A DNA stretch of 21,436 bases from Clostridium sp. CAG:1219 (lineage in GTDB: Bacteria; Bacillota; Clostridia; TANB77; CAG-465): NCBI GenBank assembly GCA_000433335.1, contig HF996763.1, forward strand, positions 4,292 through 25,727, read 5' to 3'. The notes under the pieces are model-generated. The model did not search any database. It had not been told where the DNA came from and saw only the letters and a program-made list of their open reading frames with translations. Positions 29-9,902 of this stretch are shown here, piece by piece. How positions within the stretch are numbered: the stretch's first letter is position 1; each line of letters begins with the position of its first letter. The position numbers and the translations under genes are program-made.

Positions 29-844
29 ATGACTATTGAAGAAATATATGATGCTATAAAAAGTGAAACATGTATAAAATCATACAAAATAAATAAGGAA
101 AAAGTGGATAATTTAACTATATTTGATAGTAAATTTGGAGGAATTCCATATTGGGATTTTTCAAAAGAATACCCAACAGATAGTAAAGAAGAAAAATTAA
201 AATTATTAGCACAAATAAATTTTGAAAAAGAAAATTTTAACGACTTCAGATTGCCAAAAAAAGGAATCTTGCAATTTTTCATATCATCAAATGATGATGT
301 GTACGGAATGAATTTTGATGAACAAGATAAGCAAACTAATTGGAGAGTAATTTATCATGAAAATGTAAATTATGATGTAACAGAAGAAGAGATAAAAAAT
401 AAAGATGTAAAAACTTTAAAAGATGTAACACCCAATTATGTTCCTTTTACTGATACATATAAAATTAATTTTGAAGTATGTGAGGAAGTAATGAACTGTA
501 ATGAAAATGGATTTAGAGCTTTAGTAGCAAGAATATTAAAGGATAAATTTAATGTTATAGTTGAAGAAAAGAAAGTAGAAGAGTATTTAGAACAAATAGA
601 CGAGAAATTTTATAAAAGGTTTGAAAATTGGGGACACAAATTATTAGGTTATCCAGCTTTTACTCAATCAGATCCAAGAGATTATAAAGTTAAATATGGA
701 AAGTATGATACTTTGCTTTTACAAATAGATTCAGAGGACGATATTATGTGGGGAGATTGTGGAGTAGCTAACTTCTTTATTAATAAAGATGATTTATTAA
801 ATAAGAAATTTGATAATATTTTATATAATTGGGATTGCTGTTAG
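29..844 (+). CDS. YwqG/DUF1963 family protein
   Basis: This 271-residue protein belongs to the YwqG (DUF1963) family of small cytosolic proteins of unknown biochemical role. Family landmarks are visible in order: KFGGIPYW near residue 36, LLAQINF near 59, KGILQFFIS near 78 followed by DDVYG, then HKLLGYPAF, LLLQIDS, the WGDCGVANFFI block near 240, and the closing LYNWDCC. The length is normal for the family and the protein looks intact, with no signal peptide or membrane helix. The ATG follows a G-rich ribosome site (AGGGGGA, about 16-22). A strong terminator lies 100 bases downstream, so the gene ends its transcription unit. The upstream context is outside the window. Family assignment is secure from conserved motifs recalled from family members; the function is not known. 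Confidence 0.88.
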   Translation: MTIEEIYDAIKSETCIKSYKINKEKVDNLTIFDSKFGGIPYWDFSKEYPTDSKEEKLKLLAQINFEKENFNDFRLPKKGILQFFISSNDDVYGMNFDEQDKQTNWRVIYHENVNYDVTEEEIKNKDVKTLKDVTPNYVPFTDTYKINFEVCEEVMNCNENGFRALVARILKDKFNVIVEEKKVEEYLEQIDEKFYKRFENWGHKLLGYPAFTQSDPRDYKVKYGKYDTLLLQIDSEDDIMWGDCGVANFFINKDDLLNKKFDNILYNWDCC

Positions 845-943
845 TTGTTAGTATTAGGTAAATGTAATAGTAAGCACGTTATACAATAAATTGTACTAAA
901 TTTTAAAAATCGGACATTTTTTATTAAGGGCTAGTAAATTTGA
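845..943. other. Intergenic spacer, nothing recognised
   Basis: About 100 bases lie between the YwqG-type gene and its terminator. I see no open frame with a ribosome site, no clear promoter and no repeat here. Confidence 0.5.
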
Positions 944-983
944 GAATGAATCTTGGTTGTACAAGATTCATTTCTTTTTTTTT
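944..983 (+). terminator. Rho-independent terminator after the YwqG-type gene
   Basis: TGAATCTTG (947-955) pairs perfectly with CAAGATTCA (962-970) around the loop GTTGTA, with two further A-T pairs at the base. It is followed by TTTC and a run of nine T. This is a strong plus-strand intrinsic terminator, and it insulates the next gene from upstream transcription. Confidence 0.85.
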
Positions 984-1038
984 ATATTAAAGAAAACTAC
1001 AGCTTGTATATGATGATTTTATAATAAGCTACATAATA

Positions 1039-1067
1039 TTGACATATGAACGAAAAAATGTTATAAT
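1039..1067 (+). promoter_or_regulatory. Perfect-consensus sigma-A promoter for the Clp/M41 gene
   Basis: TTGACA (1039-1044) and TATAAT (1062-1067) are both exact consensus hexamers, separated by exactly 17 bases. This is the strongest-looking vegetative promoter in the window. Transcription would begin near 1074, giving a leader of about 68 nucleotides before the ATG at 1142. Confidence 0.85.
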
Positions 1068-1093
1068 CTTTAGCGTAAGAAAGTAACAACAAA

Positions 1094-1119
1094 GCCATAA
1101 TTATAGCTTTGATTATGGT
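1094..1119 (+). promoter_or_regulatory. Leader hairpin just upstream of the Shine-Dalgarno
   Basis: GCCATAAT (1094-1101) can pair with ATTATGGT (1112-1119; one G-U pair) around a 10-base loop. The stem ends 8 bases before the AAGGAGG ribosome site (1127-1133). It could influence translation initiation of the Clp/M41 gene. It matches no riboswitch class I know, and a stem this short and AT-rich could be chance. Confidence 0.3.
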
Positions 1120-1141
1120 CAGCCACAAGGAGGTAGTAACA

Positions 1142-3109
1142 ATGAATAATAGAGATAACATTTCTGTGGATCTTGCCGAGTATTTTATACGGGCAAGAAA
1201 TCTTGCAACAGAGATAAAGGATCTTTTAGCACCAGTAAATACAATTGACTTTTTGCTTGCGCAGCTTATGGACATTGACAGTCTTCTTTCTATTTATGAT
1301 GAAGAAAATGTCAGTGAAAATAACTTTAAAGTGAAGGTAAAAACAGATTTCTTAACCGTATATGCTGGACTGCATAGTCATTCTAAAATGTTCACAGAAG
1401 CGTATGGTTGCTCTTACGATAAAATGAAAAAAATGCTTGACTTGGCAAAAAACACAATGTCAGATGTATATGATGAGGAATGTATAGTTACAAGTGCAAC
1501 CACATCCCACTTCGATGACGATTTATCAGATGTTATAAATAAATCGTTGCAGCTCTGTGAGATAAATGGAAAGTGTTCAGTTACAACGGCGACATTCCTT
1601 CATACAATTTTTTCTGATGAGAATTCAAGAGCTGTTAAGTTCATTCAGAAATACTTTAAGTATGACTTAAAAGACCTTAGGGAATATCTTGTGGAAAGTG
1701 GTGCTGTAATTGAAAATACTAGTAGTTATTCTGGAGTCCCTTCAAATATTTCGAGCTTTTCAAGATGTTTGAATGACACAATAACCCCAGGTGAACCTTG
1801 CAGTATTTTATGCAGGGATAAAGAAATACAAGCAGTCTGGAATATTCTTGGTAAGAAAACCAAGAAAAATGCTATGCTGGTTGGTGAAGCGGGTGTAGGT
1901 AAGTCGGCAATAGTAGAGGCCATCGTACACAGGATAATAAATAAAACCTGTCCAGAGAAATTTTATGGCTTTAATGTTATAGAGGTGTCTGTAAATTCGA
2001 TGATATCTGGCACTAAATATCGTGGTGAATTTGAAAAAAAGGCAGACGATTTAATCCAGTACATTGAGAGTCATGATAAATTAATAATCTTCATTGACGA
2101 AATACATCAAATATTTGGAGCAGGTAGTTGTGAAGACTCAGGTGTGGATCTTAGCGGTGCTTTAAAATCACTTCTTGCAAGAGACAAGGCCATATTTATT
2201 GGCGCTACAACTGTAGATGATTATCAAAGATCGTTTTCACGTGACTCTGCAATGAAGCGTAGATTCCAGCCTGTTTATGTAAGAGAACCTTCAATACAGG
2301 ACGTGTCTAAAATGATTATGTCGAAGCTTGAAGAACTTATGAAATTTCATAAAATAACCGTAAGTTCAGATGTACTCAAGTACACAACTATCGTAGCTAA
2401 AGCCATGAATTCTAATGCTAAAAACCCAGATTTGACACTTGATGTGCTTGATAGAGCAATGACAATTGCTGAGATGCGTGGATGTAAAAGACTCTCAAAA
2501 GAGCACGTAAAGATGGTTTTTGCAGAAAACTATAAAATGTTAAATACCATGGATGAGGAGGAAAAGAAGGTTGTAGCTTGGCACGAGGCGGGACATTTTG
2601 TAGCAATGTTACTTAGCAGTCACATTGTGGATCAAAAATTAATATTGGCCTCAATATTCCCTACAGGAGATGCAAATGGCATAACGTTATTCGAAGCAAC
2701 GGACAAAATAGCTTCTTACGATGATGCCTATATCGAAGAAAGTGTAGGAAGACTTCTTGCTGGAAGAATATCGCAGGGATTTATAAGGACAGGTTACGAT
2801 GCTGGTGCAATATCAGATCTTGAAGTTGCAACCAAATGGCTCACAGACAGAATAATGAAGTATGGTATGGATGAAGAGTTCATGAATATTTCTTTGTTTG
2901 CTGTTTGTGATGATCAGAATAAGTTAATCCTTACAGAGAGTGACAAGCAGAAAATTATGTCGATAGCAAAAAGAAAAGTAGATGAAATCTACAAAAAGAC
3001 AGAAAAATTACTTCTTGAAAACAAGGACATAATCGAACTTGTAGCAGGTGTGCTTCTTAAAGAAGGTGTTGTTACAGCAAGTCAGATCAAGGAAAAATTA
3101 AAGAAATAA
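1142..3109 (+). CDS. Soluble Clp N-domain / ClpA-D1 AAA+ / FtsH-type M41 peptidase chimera
   Basis: This 655-residue protein combines parts of two protease families. Residues about 110-175 resemble a Clp_N repeat (DDDLSDVINKSL, then an LHTIF... helix pattern). Residues about 220-430 form a ClpA/ClpC-type first AAA+ module: Walker A GEAGVGKS (248-255), Walker B FIDE (D319-E320), sensor-type GATT near 354, and arginine-finger region KRRF (R373, R374). There is no second AAA+ module. Instead residues about 470-655 form a peptidase M41 domain with HEAGH (481-485) and a candidate third zinc ligand, D559, in GAISDLEVAT. That lies 78 residues on, close to the 81 in E. coli FtsH. The two N-terminal membrane helices of FtsH are absent, so the protein should be cytosolic. 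By family knowledge it should unfold and degrade proteins in an ATP- and zinc-dependent way without ClpP. I chose the ATG at 1142 because AAGGAGG (1127-1133) sits 8 bases upstream; a TTG at 1109 has no such site. Codon use is richer in CGT, CTT, TCG and GCG than in neighbouring genes, which suggests acquisition. Confidence 0.85.
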   Translation: MNNRDNISVDLAEYFIRARNLATEIKDLLAPVNTIDFLLAQLMDIDSLLSIYDEENVSENNFKVKVKTDFLTVYAGLHSHSKMFTEAYGCSYDKMKKMLDLAKNTMSDVYDEECIVTSATTSHFDDDLSDVINKSLQLCEINGKCSVTTATFLHTIFSDENSRAVKFIQKYFKYDLKDLREYLVESGAVIENTSSYSGVPSNISSFSRCLNDTITPGEPCSILCRDKEIQAVWNILGKKTKKNAMLVGEAGVGKSAIVEAIVHRIINKTCPEKFYGFNVIEVSVNSMISGTKYRGEFEKKADDLIQYIESHDKLIIFIDEIHQIFGAGSCEDSGVDLSGALKSLLARDKAIFIGATTVDDYQRSFSRDSAMKRRFQPVYVREPSIQDVSKMIMSKLEELMKFHKITVSSDVLKYTTIVAKAMNSNAKNPDLTLDVLDRAMTIAEMRGCKRLSKEHVKMVFAENYKMLNTMDEEEKKVVAWHEAGHFVAMLLSSHIVDQKLILASIFPTGDANGITLFEATDKIASYDDAYIEESVGRLLAGRISQGFIRTGYDAGAISDLEVATKWLTDRIMKYGMDEEFMNISLFAVCDDQNKLILTESDKQKIMSIAKRKVDEIYKKTEKLLLENKDIIELVAGVLLKEGVVTASQIKEKLKK

Positions 3110-3118
3110 ATTCATTTT

Positions 3119-3150
3119 ACAGGCGAGTAAATTTTACTCGCCTGTTCATT
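3119..3150 (+). terminator. Terminator of the Clp/M41 gene
   Basis: A perfect inverted repeat with 13-base arms (ACAGGCGAGTAAA / TTTACTCGCCTGT, 3119-3145) starts 10 bases after the stop codon, followed by TCATTTTTA. The stem is GC-rich for this genome. Together with the terminator at 944-983 it brackets the gene as an independent unit. Confidence 0.8.
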
Positions 3151-3155
3151 TTTAC

Positions 3156-3184
3156 TGGACTTTTTTTACATAATATATTATAAT
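3156..3184 (+). promoter_or_regulatory. Sigma-A type promoter of obg
   Basis: TGGACT (3156-3161) and an exact TATAAT (3179-3184) are separated by 17 bases. The predicted start near 3191 leaves about 36 bases of leader before the obg ATG, which includes an AAAAGGAG ribosome site. Confidence 0.65.
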
Positions 3185-3202
3185 GTAATGTATATTGAAT
3201 AA

Positions 3203-4500
<1,298 letters not shown>

Positions 4501-4501
<1 letters not shown>

Positions 4502-4528
4502 AAAAGAGGATTTTTCCTCTTTTTTTTC
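4501..4528 (+). terminator. Terminator of obg
   Basis: AAAAAGAGGA (4501-4510) pairs with TCCTCTTTTT (4515-4524) around a TTTT loop, with the T-run continuing to 4527. The hairpin begins on the last base of the obg stop codon. Confidence 0.82.
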
Positions 4529-4557
4529 TTGAATTATAAAATAAAAATTGTTAAAAT
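4529..4557 (+). promoter_or_regulatory. Candidate promoter of comEC
   Basis: TTGAAT (4529-4534) and TAAAAT (4552-4557) are 17 bases apart, directly after the obg terminator. The predicted start near 4564 would exclude the upstream TTG as a translation start and leave a short leader carrying the AGGAGGG site at 4573-4579. Confidence 0.5.
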
Positions 4558-4572
4558 TTCTCTTAAAATGTT

Positions 4573-4588
4573 AGGAGGGATTTTTATT
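4573..4588 (+). promoter_or_regulatory. Strong ribosome site followed by an ATT codon (comEC start)
   Basis: AGGAGGG (4573-4579) is a near-perfect Shine-Dalgarno. The in-frame codon at ideal distance is ATT (4586-4588), with 6 bases between. An ATG at 4568 lies in front of the site, not behind it. This supports rare AUU initiation for comEC. Confidence 0.5.
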
Positions 4589-6835
4589 TTAGATAATATA
4601 TTAAAAATTATAAAAAAACACAATAAAATATTTATTTTAGTATTAATATTAATTTTAGTCTGTAGGGTAGTATATAGCATTTATTTATATGAGGCAAAAT
4701 ATAAAAATTCTAACGAAAATGAGAAATTTGAGGTAAAAATAATCTCACTAAAAAGTTATTCTAAAGATAAAGTGTCTTATATTGTAAAATATGATAAAAA
4801 TAAATTTTTACTTAATATATTTAAAAATGATGAAGATAAAAACATTGAAAAATCTGAAAAAGATGTATTAAAGTATGGTGATATACTAGTTGTAAGAGGA
4901 AAGATATCCATACCAGAATTACTAGGGAATCCTTATGAAGTTAACTATAAAAAAAATCTTAATTCAAATGGAATATGTGGAATAATTAATACTTATAAAA
5001 TTCTTAATGTGGAAGAAAATAAAAAAAATGATATATTATCATTAATTTTTTCTTATAGAGCAAGGTATGAAGAAAAAGTAGTAGAAAACTTACCAGTAAA
5101 CGAAGGCGAACTGCTAAAATCAATCTTATATTCAAGTAAAATTATGTTAGATGAAAATATTAAAAACAATATAAGTAATATAGGAATTTCACATATTCTT
5201 GTTGCATCCTCTGGAAGTTTTATAATGGTACTTAAGTTAGTAGAAAAATTAAGAAAATTTTATAGCAAATATTTCATAAAACTTTTACAGATATTTTTCT
5301 GTATAGTTTTGTTTATATTCTCAGAGTCGCAACTTTCGACATTTAGAGCATTAATTATAGTTATAATATCTATATTGTCTCAAGATAAAATCTCAAAAAT
5401 AAATAAAATATTTATTTCAATTTATATTCTTTTGCTGTATAATCCGTACAATATTTTTAATATTAGTGTTATATTTTCTTATCTTGCAATACTTGGGGTA
5501 ACATTTTTATATGACGAGATAAGAGCATTTAATAATTTTAAAACAGAGAGGTTGCTCTTTAGGCTAGGGATAAATAACAAATACATGAAAAAAATTTTTA
5601 TATTTATTAGCCAAAGTTTTAGTCTAACACTATCAATTTTATTATTTTCTCTTCCAGTTCAAATATGTTTATTCAATTCGTTTAATATTATGATATTTTT
5701 ATCAAATATAGTTGTTGTTCCACTTGTTTTTATAGTACGTTTTTTAGGGTACATATCAATTTTTTTTGTATATATTTTTAATATTTCAGATATTTTAATA
5801 AACTCACTTTATATTCCATTAAGGGTATTAATTTCTATATGTGAGGTATTATCTTCTAAAAATATTCAAATTAGCATTGCATCATTTAGTGTATTTTCTA
5901 TTATTTTATATTACTCAACGCTTACACTATTTATAATTAAAGTAAGATATATAAAAATATTAACAATTTTTAATAAGAAAAGAAGGAAAAAAATTAAAAA
6001 TACGTTTATAGTAATTCTGATTTTTTGCATTTTATTTATTGTAGGTGAGCAGGTATATATTAATATATTGCAAGAGTATGTGTATTTTTTTAATGTTAAG
6101 CAAGGAAATATGGCATTAATAAAAAAGGGAAGACAAGTAATTGTAATAGATTGTGGCTCAACAACAAAAGGTTTAGCCAAAAATATTTTAAATAAATTTT
6201 TAAGAGCAAAAAATATAAAAAATATAGATTTAATTTTAATAACTCATATGCACGAGGATCATATAAATGGAATTTTAGAAATAAACAATGAGAATATTAA
6301 AATAAAAAATGTAGCATACGGAAAAATTTGGCATAATATAAATGAGGAATATATTAAAATATCAGATTATTTAAAAAATAAAAATATAGAAAGTATGGTT
6401 TTATGTGGGGGAGATAACTTTAATTTGGATAAAATTTTAATAAAATGTTTGTCTCCTTGTTCGGATAAAAAAATAGAATCATCAGATGAAATAAACAGTA
6501 ATAGCGCAGTATATAAAATAGAAATAAACAGTAATATTAAAAGTAAAAAAACACTTTTATTTATGGGGGATGCTACTGTTGAGTCTGAAAGAATAATATT
6601 ACAAAAATATAGAGGGGAACTTTTAGGTGTAGATGTTTTGCAAGTTGGACATCATGGTTCTAAGACTTCAAGTTGTGATGAGTTTATAAAAGTAGTTTTG
6701 CCAAAGATTTCTGTTATTTCATCTTATAAAAAAGTTTACAATCATCCGTCAGAGGAAGTTGTAAATACACTTGCTAAATATAATTTGAACTTCCATATAA
6801 CTGAAAATAAAAAAAGTTTAAAAATTGATTTATAA
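4586..6835 (+). CDS. comEC: ComEC/Rec2-type DNA uptake channel with metallo-beta-lactamase-fold domain
   Basis: ComEC forms the inner-membrane channel that brings single-stranded DNA into the cell during transformation; the C-terminal domain is thought to degrade the other strand. The order of parts fits the family: an N-terminal helix (HNKIFILVLILILVCRVVY), an extracytoplasmic beta-rich segment of the DUF4131 type with LLGNPYEVNY, a multi-helix Competence domain with ILVASSGSFIMVL and STFRALI, and a C-terminal metallo-hydrolase domain. The latter keeps LILITHMHEDH (T553-H559), the MGDAT block and VGHHGSKTS. Length from the chosen start is 749 residues, within the family range. The frame is open back to a TTG at 4529, but that codon lies in the putative -35 and has no ribosome site. 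The only Shine-Dalgarno (AGGAGGG, 4573-4579) points to the ATT at 4586, 6 bases on. No ATG, GTG or TTG follows it at a usable distance. Product call is secure; the start is an inference. Confidence 0.9.
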   Translation: MLDNILKIIKKHNKIFILVLILILVCRVVYSIYLYEAKYKNSNENEKFEVKIISLKSYSKDKVSYIVKYDKNKFLLNIFKNDEDKNIEKSEKDVLKYGDILVVRGKISIPELLGNPYEVNYKKNLNSNGICGIINTYKILNVEENKKNDILSLIFSYRARYEEKVVENLPVNEGELLKSILYSSKIMLDENIKNNISNIGISHILVASSGSFIMVLKLVEKLRKFYSKYFIKLLQIFFCIVLFIFSESQLSTFRALIIVIISILSQDKISKINKIFISIYILLLYNPYNIFNISVIFSYLAILGVTFLYDEIRAFNNFKTERLLFRLGINNKYMKKIFIFISQSFSLTLSILLFSLPVQICLFNSFNIMIFLSNIVVVPLVFIVRFLGYISIFFVYIFNISDILINSLYIPLRVLISICEVLSSKNIQISIASFSVFSIILYYSTLTLFIIKVRYIKILTIFNKKRRKKIKNTFIVILIFCILFIVGEQVYINILQEYVYFFNVKQGNMALIKKGRQVIVIDCGSTTKGLAKNILNKFLRAKNIKNIDLILITHMHEDHINGILEINNENIKIKNVAYGKIWHNINEEYIKISDYLKNKNIESMVLCGGDNFNLDKILIKCLSPCSDKKIESSDEINSNSAVYKIEINSNIKSKKTLLFMGDATVESERIILQKYRGELLGVDVLQVGHHGSKTSSCDEFIKVVLPKISVISSYKKVYNHPSEEVVNTLAKYNLNFHITENKKSLKIDL

Positions 6836-7514: not shown

Positions 7515-7554
7515 AACCAAATAAGAAAGGAGAAGTATCCTTTCTTATTTGGTT
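7515..7554 (-). terminator. Terminator of the ClpE-like gene, overlapping its last codons
   Basis: A perfect hairpin with 17-bp arms (7515-7531 with 7538-7554) and a 6-base loop lies between two convergent genes. On the minus strand it is followed by a T-rich tail, so it terminates the ClpE-like gene. Its right arm contains that gene's stop codon (7545-7547) and the last codons. On the plus strand only a weak T-tract follows, but it may also stop transcription from the BofC-like gene. Confidence 0.82.
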
Positions 7555-9902
7555 ATAACTATCGAATTATTATCAACGTCTAGCGTAAATAAAGTATTTT
7601 CTTTAATATTGCCTTTAATAAATTCTGTTGCAAGTAAATCTTCTATATGTTTTTGAATGGCACGTCTTAGTGGTCTTGCACCAAATTTGTCGTTATATCC
7701 ATTTTTCACAATAAAGTCAACTACATTTTCTGTGTAGTTAAATAGTATATTTTTTTGTTTAGTTTGCTCCTGAAGTTCTTTAATCATAAGGGATGCAATT
7801 TTACAGATATCATCATAAGATAATTTATTAAATATTATTATATCGTCAATTCTATTTAAGAATTCAGGCGAGAAGTACTCTTTTAATGATTCAGCCACTT
7901 TGTTTTGAAGCATATTTTGTTTTGCTTCACTAATTGATGCAAAACCATAACCTTCACTTTTAAAATTTGTTCCAAGGTTTGATGTCAATATTATAATTGT
8001 GTGTTTAAATGAAACACTTCTTCCTTGAGAATCTGTAAGTTTTCCCTCATCAAGTATTTGGAGTAGCATGTTAGAAACACTAGGATGGGCTTTCTCTATC
8101 TCATCAAATAAAACTATACTATAAGGATTTCTACGAACCTTTTCTGTAAGTTGCCCTGCATCATCATATCCTACATATCCAGGAGGAGAGCCAATAAGTT
8201 TTGATACGCTATGTGATTCCATATACTCTGACATATCGAGTCTTATTACACTATCTTCTGTATCAAAAAGTTCATATGCAAGTCTTTTAACAAGAGCAGT
8301 TTTACCAACACCAGTTGGTCCGACAAATATGAAAGATGGTGGTTTTACATCATCTAATATTCCTGATCTTTTTCTTAAAATTGCATTTGAAACAGCTTTA
8401 GTGGCTTTTGTTTGGCCTATTATTGCTTTATCCAAATTTGCATTTAAGTTCAAAAGCTTTTTGCTTTCTTCTTCTCTTATTTTAGATACTGGTATTTTTG
8501 TCCAAAGTTCTATTACTCTTGCTAGGTGATCTAAAGTTACCTCAGACGTTACATTTTCTTTGTTTAAACTATCAATTTCTGTTTGAATTTTACATTTATT
8601 TTCTTTCAATTTTGCAGCAATTTCATAATTTTCAGTACTCATATTAGTATCGGATTTAATTTCATCTTTTGATTGTTCTTCAATACTTTGTTCTAGTTCT
8701 TGTTCCTCATCTGCAATTTCGTCCAGTTTAGCTTTTAATTTTTCTATTTTAGCTAAAACAACATTTTCAAGATTTACTCTTGCACAGGCCTCATCAATAA
8801 GATCTATTGCTTTATCGGGTAAAAATCTATCGTGTATATATTTATCTGAAAGATAAACTGCTTGGCTAATTAATTCGTCAGAAATTTTAACTTTATGGTA
8901 GTCTTCGTAGTAACCCTTTATACCTTTTAATATTTCTATACAATCCTTTTTTGTTGGTTCATCAACAAGTACTGGTTGAAATCTACGTTCAAGAGCGCTA
9001 TCTTTTTCAATATATTGTCTATATTCTTTAAGTGTAGTAGCTCCAATAAGTTGAACAGAACCATTAGCAAGAGCAGGTTTTAACATATTAGCAGCATTCA
9101 TTGAATTATCGTGCTCAAGACCACCAACTATGTTGTGAACTTCATCTATTGCAAGAATTATATTTCCATATGATTTGCACTCATCAATTAATCCTTTTAC
9201 TCTAGCTTCAAACTGTCCTCTAAATTGTGTGCCTGCAACTAAAGAGGTCATATCAATTAGATAAACTTCTTTATTTATAAGTTTGCCAGGAACATTGCCA
9301 GATGCTATAGCTTGGGCAAGAGCATTTACTATAGCGGTTTTGCCAACGCCAGGCTCACCAATTAAAGCAGGATTATTCTTTGATCTTCTGTTTAATATTT
9401 GGATAAGTCTTTCAAGTTCTTTGTGCCTTCCAATTACTTTGTCAAGTTTTCCCTCACGTGCTTTTTTTGTTAAGTTTTCACCAAAAGTGTCTAAATATTT
9501 TGTCTTCATATTCTTTTTAGATTTTTTTTCTGATTTGTTTTTATCGTCCTTTGAATCTTTATTAGAATCTTTAGTTACATTTTTATTAAAGCCAAAAAGT
9601 TTAGAAAAACTTAGGGGAGTCTTTGAAGCGTCGCCATTATCACTGTCTGTATCTTGTGATAGGTTATCCATATCTAAAGCTCCCATATCTCCTAGCATAC
9701 TCTCAAATTGTTCACTCATATTATTTAAATCTTCATCAGATAAGTTTCCCATTTGATTCATTATATTTGCAAGTGGGTCAATTCCTTGTTTTTTTGCACA
9801 TTCTATACAAAGACCAGTTGGATTTTTATCTGGTTTTCCGTCTTTATCAAGTTTATTTATAAAAATAACTGCCATATTTTTTTTACATACTGAACATAAC
9901 AT
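7545..9902 (-). CDS. clpE: ClpE-like ATPase with N-terminal zinc finger (ClpP partner)
   Basis: This 785-residue Hsp100 unfoldase has two AAA+ modules. By family knowledge it feeds proteins into ClpP and helps dissolve aggregates. The N-terminus is a four-cysteine zinc finger (C3, C6, C32, C35), as in ClpE and McsA, rather than a Clp_N repeat. A lysine- and serine-rich linker follows (about 105-135). D1 has Walker A GEPGVGKT (182-189), Walker B IDE (D253-E254) and RRFQPV. A charged middle region (about 390-450) includes a UVR-like stretch (YEIAAKLKENKCKIQ). D2 has GPTGVGKT (528-535), FDEIEKAHP (D600-E601) and TSNLG. YGF (652-654) stands where ClpC carries its ClpP-binding VGF loop. It is longer than B. 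subtilis ClpE (699), mainly through the linker and middle region. The start ATG follows GGAGATGA. No ctsR or mcsAB genes are adjacent. Two-module ClpC with a ClpE-type finger would be an equivalent name. Confidence 0.88.
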   Translation of the reverse strand: MLCSVCKKNMAVIFINKLDKDGKPDKNPTGLCIECAKKQGIDPLANIMNQMGNLSDEDLNNMSEQFESMLGDMGALDMDNLSQDTDSDNGDASKTPLSFSKLFGFNKNVTKDSNKDSKDDKNKSEKKSKKNMKTKYLDTFGENLTKKAREGKLDKVIGRHKELERLIQILNRRSKNNPALIGEPGVGKTAIVNALAQAIASGNVPGKLINKEVYLIDMTSLVAGTQFRGQFEARVKGLIDECKSYGNIILAIDEVHNIVGGLEHDNSMNAANMLKPALANGSVQLIGATTLKEYRQYIEKDSALERRFQPVLVDEPTKKDCIEILKGIKGYYEDYHKVKISDELISQAVYLSDKYIHDRFLPDKAIDLIDEACARVNLENVVLAKIEKLKAKLDEIADEEQELEQSIEEQSKDEIKSDTNMSTENYEIAAKLKENKCKIQTEIDSLNKENVTSEVTLDHLARVIELWTKIPVSKIREEESKKLLNLNANLDKAIIGQTKATKAVSNAILRKRSGILDDVKPPSFIFVGPTGVGKTALVKRLAYELFDTEDSVIRLDMSEYMESHSVSKLIGSPPGYVGYDDAGQLTEKVRRNPYSIVLFDEIEKAHPSVSNMLLQILDEGKLTDSQGRSVSFKHTIIILTSNLGTNFKSEGYGFASISEAKQNMLQNKVAESLKEYFSPEFLNRIDDIIIFNKLSYDDICKIASLMIKELQEQTKQKNILFNYTENVVDFIVKNGYNDKFGARPLRRAIQKHIEDLLATEFIKGNIKENTLFTLDVDNNSIVITK

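Follow-up and report, generated by a model that had tools for sequence, protein, structure and literature searches.

The hybrid gene and its domains

The subject of this analysis is a protease gene on a 21,436 nucleotide stretch of DNA from Clostridium sp. CAG:1219 (assembly GCA_000433335.1, contig HF996763.1, positions 4,292 to 25,727), the whole of which is referred to here as the window. The gene is flanked by a DUF1963 gene on one side and an Obg GTPase gene on the other, and its product (P0001) joins the front half of a Clp unfoldase, comprising an N-domain and a single D1-type AAA+ module, to an M41 zinc peptidase of the kind found in FtsH (Table 1). The catalytic residues of both halves are intact and the protein has neither a second AAA+ ring nor a predicted membrane anchor.

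Table 1. Features of the hybrid protease gene and its surroundings, in window positions; residue numbers are those of the hybrid protein.
Feature	Position	Strand	Evidence
Clp-D1/M41 hybrid protease gene	1142..3109	+	open from ATG 1142 to stop 3107-3109; 655 aa
Clp N-domain, two helical repeats, residues 6-186	1157..1699	+	profile comparison; helices of AlphaFold model
Single AAA+ module, ClpA/B/C D1 type, residues 205-446	1754..2479	+	NCBIfam, solved-structure matches, tree
Walker A GEAGVGKS, residues 248-255	1883..1906	+	lysine in 116/116 aligned members
Clp D1 pore loop GTKYRG, residues 290-295	2009..2026	+	tyrosine in 111/116 aligned members
Walker B FIDE, residues 317-320	2090..2101	+	D and E in 116/116 aligned members
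Arginine pair R373 R374, putative arginine fingers	2258..2263	+	both in 116/116 aligned members
Clp-type AAA lid, AAA_lid_9, residues 386-453	2297..2500	+	Pfam 23.8 bits vs cut-off 22.8
M41 zinc peptidase domain, residues 466-655	2537..3106	+	
Zinc site HEAGH, residues 481-485	2582..2596	+	HExxH in 115/116 aligned members, 126/127 proteins
D559, probable third zinc ligand	2816..2818	+	116/116 aligned members
AAGGAGG ribosome binding site	1127..1133	+	8 bases 5' of ATG; read in sequence
Sigma-70-type promoter-like site	1039..1067	+	TTGACA-17-TATAAT, 12/12 matches, TG ahead of second hexamer; pattern scan
Terminator-like hairpin between upstream DUF1963 gene and hybrid gene	944..973	+	pattern scan
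Terminator-like hairpin 3' of hybrid gene	3119..3145	+	pattern scan
Ordinary two-ring Clp gene, comparison only, not part of the system	7545..9902	-	AAA, AAA_lid_9, AAA_2, ClpB_D2-small found

The AAA+ module is of Clp rather than FtsH type. ClpA ranked top for the window protein among NCBIfam models (E=4.6e-62, residues 84-464), Pfam AAA matched residues 245-375 (E=2e-15) and the best sequence match among solved structures was to ClpC (residues 200-468), whereas FtsH-type protease structures gave weaker matches, most of them spanning approximately residues 233-652. A D2 module with its D2-small domain was absent from the Pfam scan of the protein. The arginine pair lies in a KRRF motif at residues 372-375, and by analogy with ClpB D1 these two residues are putative arginine fingers. 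The KYR of the pore loop has its counterpart in the D1 pore-1 loop of ClpA (PMC9663308, in extract). A tree was made by a quick method, without bootstraps, from 110 AAA+ domains, among them 19 FtsH rows and, out of 78 open reading frames (ORFs) for two-ring Clp proteins, 42 D1 and 12 D2 modules. In it the fusion modules grouped with Clp D1 (SH-aLRT 94) and FtsH stood apart (95*); internal support was 73 for the fusion clade and 54 for the Clp D1 clade.

The second half of the protein is an M41 peptidase. Pfam Peptidase_M41 matched residues 469-651 (E=1e-22; score 81.4 bits, cut-off 29.9) and NCBIfam FtsH matched residues 456-649 (E=8.1e-23), the latter at 81 bits and so short of its curated cut-off of 600. 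Since the ClpA score is likewise far under its curated cut-off, no curated NCBIfam model names the window protein. The M41 protease YME1L binds zinc through two histidines and one aspartate (PMC12994072, in extract), and counterparts of all three ligands are present in the window protein.

The N-terminal region is less readily recognised. Pfam Clp_N had no match in the window protein, and it was found at E<=0.01 in 2/40 diverse relatives as compared with 26/120 listed homologues in precomputed Pfam annotation. The assignment comes from profile-profile comparison, in which the family N-region (profile of 40 members) aligned over both repeats with the canonical Clp N-region (profile of 60 sequences; hhalign probability 98.4, E=6.4e-15, the latter value applying to one single comparison), and the AlphaFold model places two sets of helices within the first 186 residues. 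In a scan of 2976 ORFs the N-region profile matched 51 of the 81 ordinary Clp ORFs, in each case ahead of D1, and gave a weak match to a single further ORF. It also matched 28 of 34 rows made up of 33 fusion rows (one a duplicate, L081) and the diverged relative L168, leaving six whose N-terminal part it did not recognise.

Membrane helices were sought by Kyte-Doolittle hydropathy alone, using the highest 19-residue value and a threshold of 1.6. None was found by this test in the window protein, whose maximum was 1.37, whereas the threshold was exceeded by 36/38 FtsH rows of the same order (median 2.8) and by 28/28 FtsH rows from other bacteria (median 2.6). We infer that the hybrid is a soluble, cytosolic protein.

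A sequence-only reading of the window had described a soluble chain in which a Clp_N-like repeat and a single ClpA/C-type D1 module are fused to an M41 peptidase, and this interpretation largely holds. The motifs that it named are present, with HEAGH and D559 at the residues it gave, there is a strong M41 match past residue 470, the AAA+ module clusters with Clp D1 and not with FtsH, and the N-terminal repeat was recovered by profile comparison though Pfam was silent. Sequence profiles, the confident AlphaFold model, structure matches and the separate trees of the two halves are mutually consistent.

Conservation and descent of the family

The same reading had allowed that a small family with this layout might already be catalogued. 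The layout is not rare, since AAA and M41 are both present in at least 126 relatives (clusters) among the matches listed, according to precomputed Pfam annotation. At E<=1e-95 there were at least 159 clusters from 7997 candidates scored, 120 of which were listed, and a survey of 40 diverse relatives found M41, AAA and AAA_lid_9 all matching at E<=0.01 in every one. Two close pairs gave dS/dN values of 0.245/0.023 and 0.210/0.010, a third (L139/L140) being left out on account of unequal lengths, and both pairs computed show strong purifying selection on the hybrid genes.

A carefully made tree of 94 M41 domains placed the 32 fusion rows in one clade (98/86*), which L168 joins at 100/99*. Because the M41 halves form one clade and the fusion AAA+ modules group with Clp D1, the two halves are compatible with a single joining event, the AAA+ tree being of the quick kind. 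L168 itself (3463-5076, minus strand), a divergent relative of Clp-M41 type, has a short N-terminal part and an intact HETGH. At another locus, L161 (G204 contig C1), two fusion copies lie about 3 kb apart (63108-64709 and 67931-69916), one of them with an internal stop.

Distribution and genome context

The Obg protein encoded in the window shares 67-75% identity with that of 26 genomes, all from the family of genome G001, the best full-length match outside this family being 61% (G113), which places the window in or near the G001 family. At a threshold of 1e-110 the fusion was found in 16 of the 36 genomes of that family, for which all candidates were scored, in 32/287 genomes sampled from the order and in 4/391 sampled from the class, all four belonging to the G001 family; at 1e-100 it was found in one of 398 genomes sampled from the phylum, G001 itself. 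The order, class and phylum searches scored the first four, three and two candidates per genome respectively, and absences in them are therefore weak. Within the genomes sampled, the fusion is patchy and limited to one order of small-genome Clostridia.

The hybrid generally occurs beside more familiar proteases. ClpP was found in all 36 related genomes of the family and M41 matches of FtsH strength (E<=4e-69) accompany the fusion in 13 of the 16 genomes that bear it. In G034 the match of this strength is partial and lies in a reading frame that contains a stop. For G001 and G011 just one M41 match apiece was recorded, weaker in both cases (2.8e-34, located at the fusion, in G001 and 8.5e-24 in G011); loss of canonical FtsH from the last two is not claimed, as the completeness of the genomes is not given. 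A contig scan with the window protein returned 80 loci, mainly ordinary Clp genes, and the M41 half was matched in L001 alone, a locus of G001 (residues 199-649). When a profile of the family M41 domain was run over 159 loci (80 viral and 79 bacterial) it found two bacterial ORFs, in L022 and L055, each distinct from the Clp ORFs at its locus.

There was no sign of an operon partner: no neighbour family recurred in more than five of 21 loci (the window and 20 others, several of which end at contig ends). Two loci from related genomes, L148 and L155, have in common all of the block that surrounds the fusion (families c15-c29), which was not seen in the other loci and which includes a gene that, by eye, reads like a PP2C phosphatase.

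Proposed mechanism and alternatives

The hybrid is most probably a soluble, self-compartmentalised AAA+ protease produced from one gene, a reading in which hexamer formation, coupling of the rings, cytosolic location, proteolysis and substrates are all predicted. Six copies would come together by way of the Clp-type D1 ring. Substrates would be captured by, or handed to, the Clp N-domains, and KYRG loops in the pore of the one D1 ring would pull the chain inward at the expense of ATP. An M41 ring beneath D1 would then cut the chain with zinc, taking the place of the D2 ring and ClpP in ClpAP and ClpCP. ClpP would presumably be bypassed because the D2 ring, which bears its docking loop, is absent.

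A number of considerations weigh against such a machine. The membrane span of YME1L drives hexamer formation, and mitochondrial AAA+ proteases from which the span had been removed failed to assemble as hexamers until its place was taken by a hexameric coiled coil (PMC5095350, in extract). As the hybrid has neither a membrane span nor the FtsH motor, the likely source of its hexamer is the Clp D1 ring, perhaps together with the N-domain. In ClpA, D1 serves in substrate recognition, as an aid to processivity and as a weaker back-up motor, D2 being the principal motor (PMC9663308, in extract), and for this reason a protease with D1 alone is unexpected and may be weak. Hydropathy was just above the threshold in 6 of 121 family proteins and in 5 of 33 fusion rows read from DNA. 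P0088, the sole exception to HExxH among the 116 aligned members, has lost its zinc site, and L168 lacks the Walker B glutamate (read by eye) and is perhaps an ATPase-dead member. Finally, the AlphaFold model has a pTM of 0.65, so that the arrangement of the domains is unsure.

An alternative that overlaps with the soluble protease and does not exclude it is that the hybrid works chiefly as a chaperone or remodelling factor, with a D1 ring too weak to unfold stable proteins and an M41 ring that does no more than trim peptides or unfolded chains, or that cleaves a single dedicated partner. We regard this as possible, though unlikely as the principal function. The auxiliary standing of D1 in ClpA (PMC9663308, in extract) favours it, and the patchy occurrence of the fusion (16/36), alongside M41 matches of FtsH strength (13/16) and ClpP (36/36), speaks against a general housekeeping protease. 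However, the ATPase and zinc sites are both conserved, suggesting that the protein makes use of threading as well as cleavage. FtsH, moreover, functions with one AAA+ ring.

Much less probable is that the gene is stress or anti-phage cargo, which the sequence-only reading had mentioned as a possibility. The patchy distribution would fit, and weak matches to the defence ATPase IetA were obtained with two of the four members tested (P0105 and P0114), but P0001 had none and matched no family among the PADLOC defence models at E<=0.001. The lack of recurrent neighbours counts against the idea, as does a search of phage and plasmid records (158 and 2365 with a match, respectively), in which no place covers 80% of the window protein. 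The family M41 profile found no M41 among the best 80 viral loci, and no convincing heat-shock box was seen in 22 upstream stretches, the closest CIRCE-like and CtsR-like sites having 6 and 4 mismatches respectively. The defence proposal was thus not borne out.

That the protein is an ordinary membrane FtsH, mis-described, can be given hardly any credence: the M41 domain and the NCBIfam FtsH match would be explained, but the AAA+ tree and the Clp-type lid refute it, the protein has a Clp N-domain and no hydropathy helix, and separate FtsH-strength matches exist in most fusion-bearing genomes. A chance fusion arising from a frameshift, an assembly error or a dying gene might account for the decayed ATPase of L168 and for the one stop codon inside the match in 5 of 33 fusion matches (G024, G135, G112, G247 and one of the two G204 copies), but it is equally implausible and is refuted for the family as a whole by the number of clusters, the single clade, the intact sites and the low dN/dS in both pairs.

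Relation to known systems

The architecture lacks defining features both of FtsH, namely its motor and membrane anchor, and of ClpA and ClpC, namely the D2 ring. With FtsH, YME1L and AFG3L2 the hybrid has in common an M41 zinc peptidase with HEXXH and an aspartate ligand, but those proteins have their own FtsH AAA module and membrane helices where the hybrid has a Clp D1 with a Clp lid and a Clp N-domain and is probably soluble. The N-domain, D1 ring, KYRG pore loop, Walker sites and arginine pair are common to ClpA, ClpC and ClpE, which act with ClpP, whereas the hybrid is without the D2 ring, and hence without the ClpP contact borne on it, and has its own metallopeptidase instead. In comparison with ClpB and Hsp104 it lacks D2 and any visible lid insertion, and a peptidase stands in their place. 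There is a parallel with the engineered hexYME1L, also an M41 AAA+ protease made soluble through replacement of the membrane part, but there an artificial coiled coil was placed on the native AAA module (PMC5095350, in extract), whereas the motor and N-terminal part of the hybrid are wholly Clp-derived.

No description of the Clp-D1/M41 layout was found in the open-licence literature, judged from titles and the openings of abstracts, which is no proof of absence. AAA+ proteases comprise, to our knowledge, a handful of fixed pairings of motor and peptidase. On balance we favour the view that the hybrid represents a further, undescribed kind of AAA+ protease that is self-contained, soluble and independent of ClpP, in which a D1 ring alone would unfold substrates and feed a fused M41 chamber. 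Such a protease would exemplify a broader tendency of this Clostridia order to set M41 on varied AAA+ motors, whether FtsH-type, Clp D1, short with a decayed ATPase or giant with three AAA stretches. Clp and FtsH, thought of as separate, have here been recombined naturally and kept by selection, and whether a Clp D1 ring, usually an auxiliary motor, can unfold and translocate alone becomes a directly testable question. The hybrid also offers an M41 protease that is probably soluble by nature, unlike its mitochondrial relatives, whose membrane part has hampered solution work (PMC5095350, in extract), and possibly a scaffold for swaps of motor and peptidase.

Transcription signals and other pairings of M41

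The hybrid gene has its own ribosome binding site, a promoter-like site with 12/12 matches and hairpins on both sides, and for these reasons it is probably its own transcription unit between the DUF1963 and Obg genes. The hairpin scan covered positions 840-3300 and gave three terminator-like sites, as against a mean of 1.0 (sd 1.2) in shuffled sequence. The best upstream promoter-like site had 11-12 matches in 18 of 22 fusion genes as compared with 39 of 239 other genes at the same loci, a contrast that is overstated because the control set includes operon-internal genes and that includes the near-copy loci L149/L150 and L152/L153. Given the strong promoter-like sites and the lack of recurrent neighbours, the gene is probably a stand-alone unit that is well and constitutively expressed. 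Between its promoter and ribosome site there is an imperfect palindrome, CAAAGCCATAATTATAGCTTTG, at positions 1090-1111, which was scored as a terminator-like site on the minus strand and is a possible candidate operator; none like it was seen in the promoter stretches of other fusion genes. The two-ring Clp gene elsewhere in the window is, in our reading of its N-terminal zinc finger, probably of ClpE type.

Other pairings of M41 with AAA+ motors were observed in related genomes. Short AAA-M41 proteins of approximately 470 residues are encoded at L162 (3054-4517, plus strand), L163 (3286-4686, minus), L166 (2987-4411, plus) and L171 (2697-4100, plus). They have HExxH, and their Walker B reads, by eye, KN, KD, KE or EN instead of DE. 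The two that were scanned, L162 and L166, match AAA, M41 and AAA_lid_3, and two of the four have hydropathy at or below 1.6. Their AAA part gives a weak FtsH match, and its four rows fall outside the FtsH group in the quick AAA+ tree. Giant frames whose 5' ends lie beyond the stretch were found at L164 (3-4832, 1609 residues) and L165 (2-4765, 1587 residues), and L164, the one scanned, contains three AAA stretches and one AAA_lid_6, a name that we take to denote a CbxX-like lid, followed by M41 with HETGH. In the 94-domain tree the M41 domains of both the short and the giant proteins branch apart from those of the Clp hybrids.
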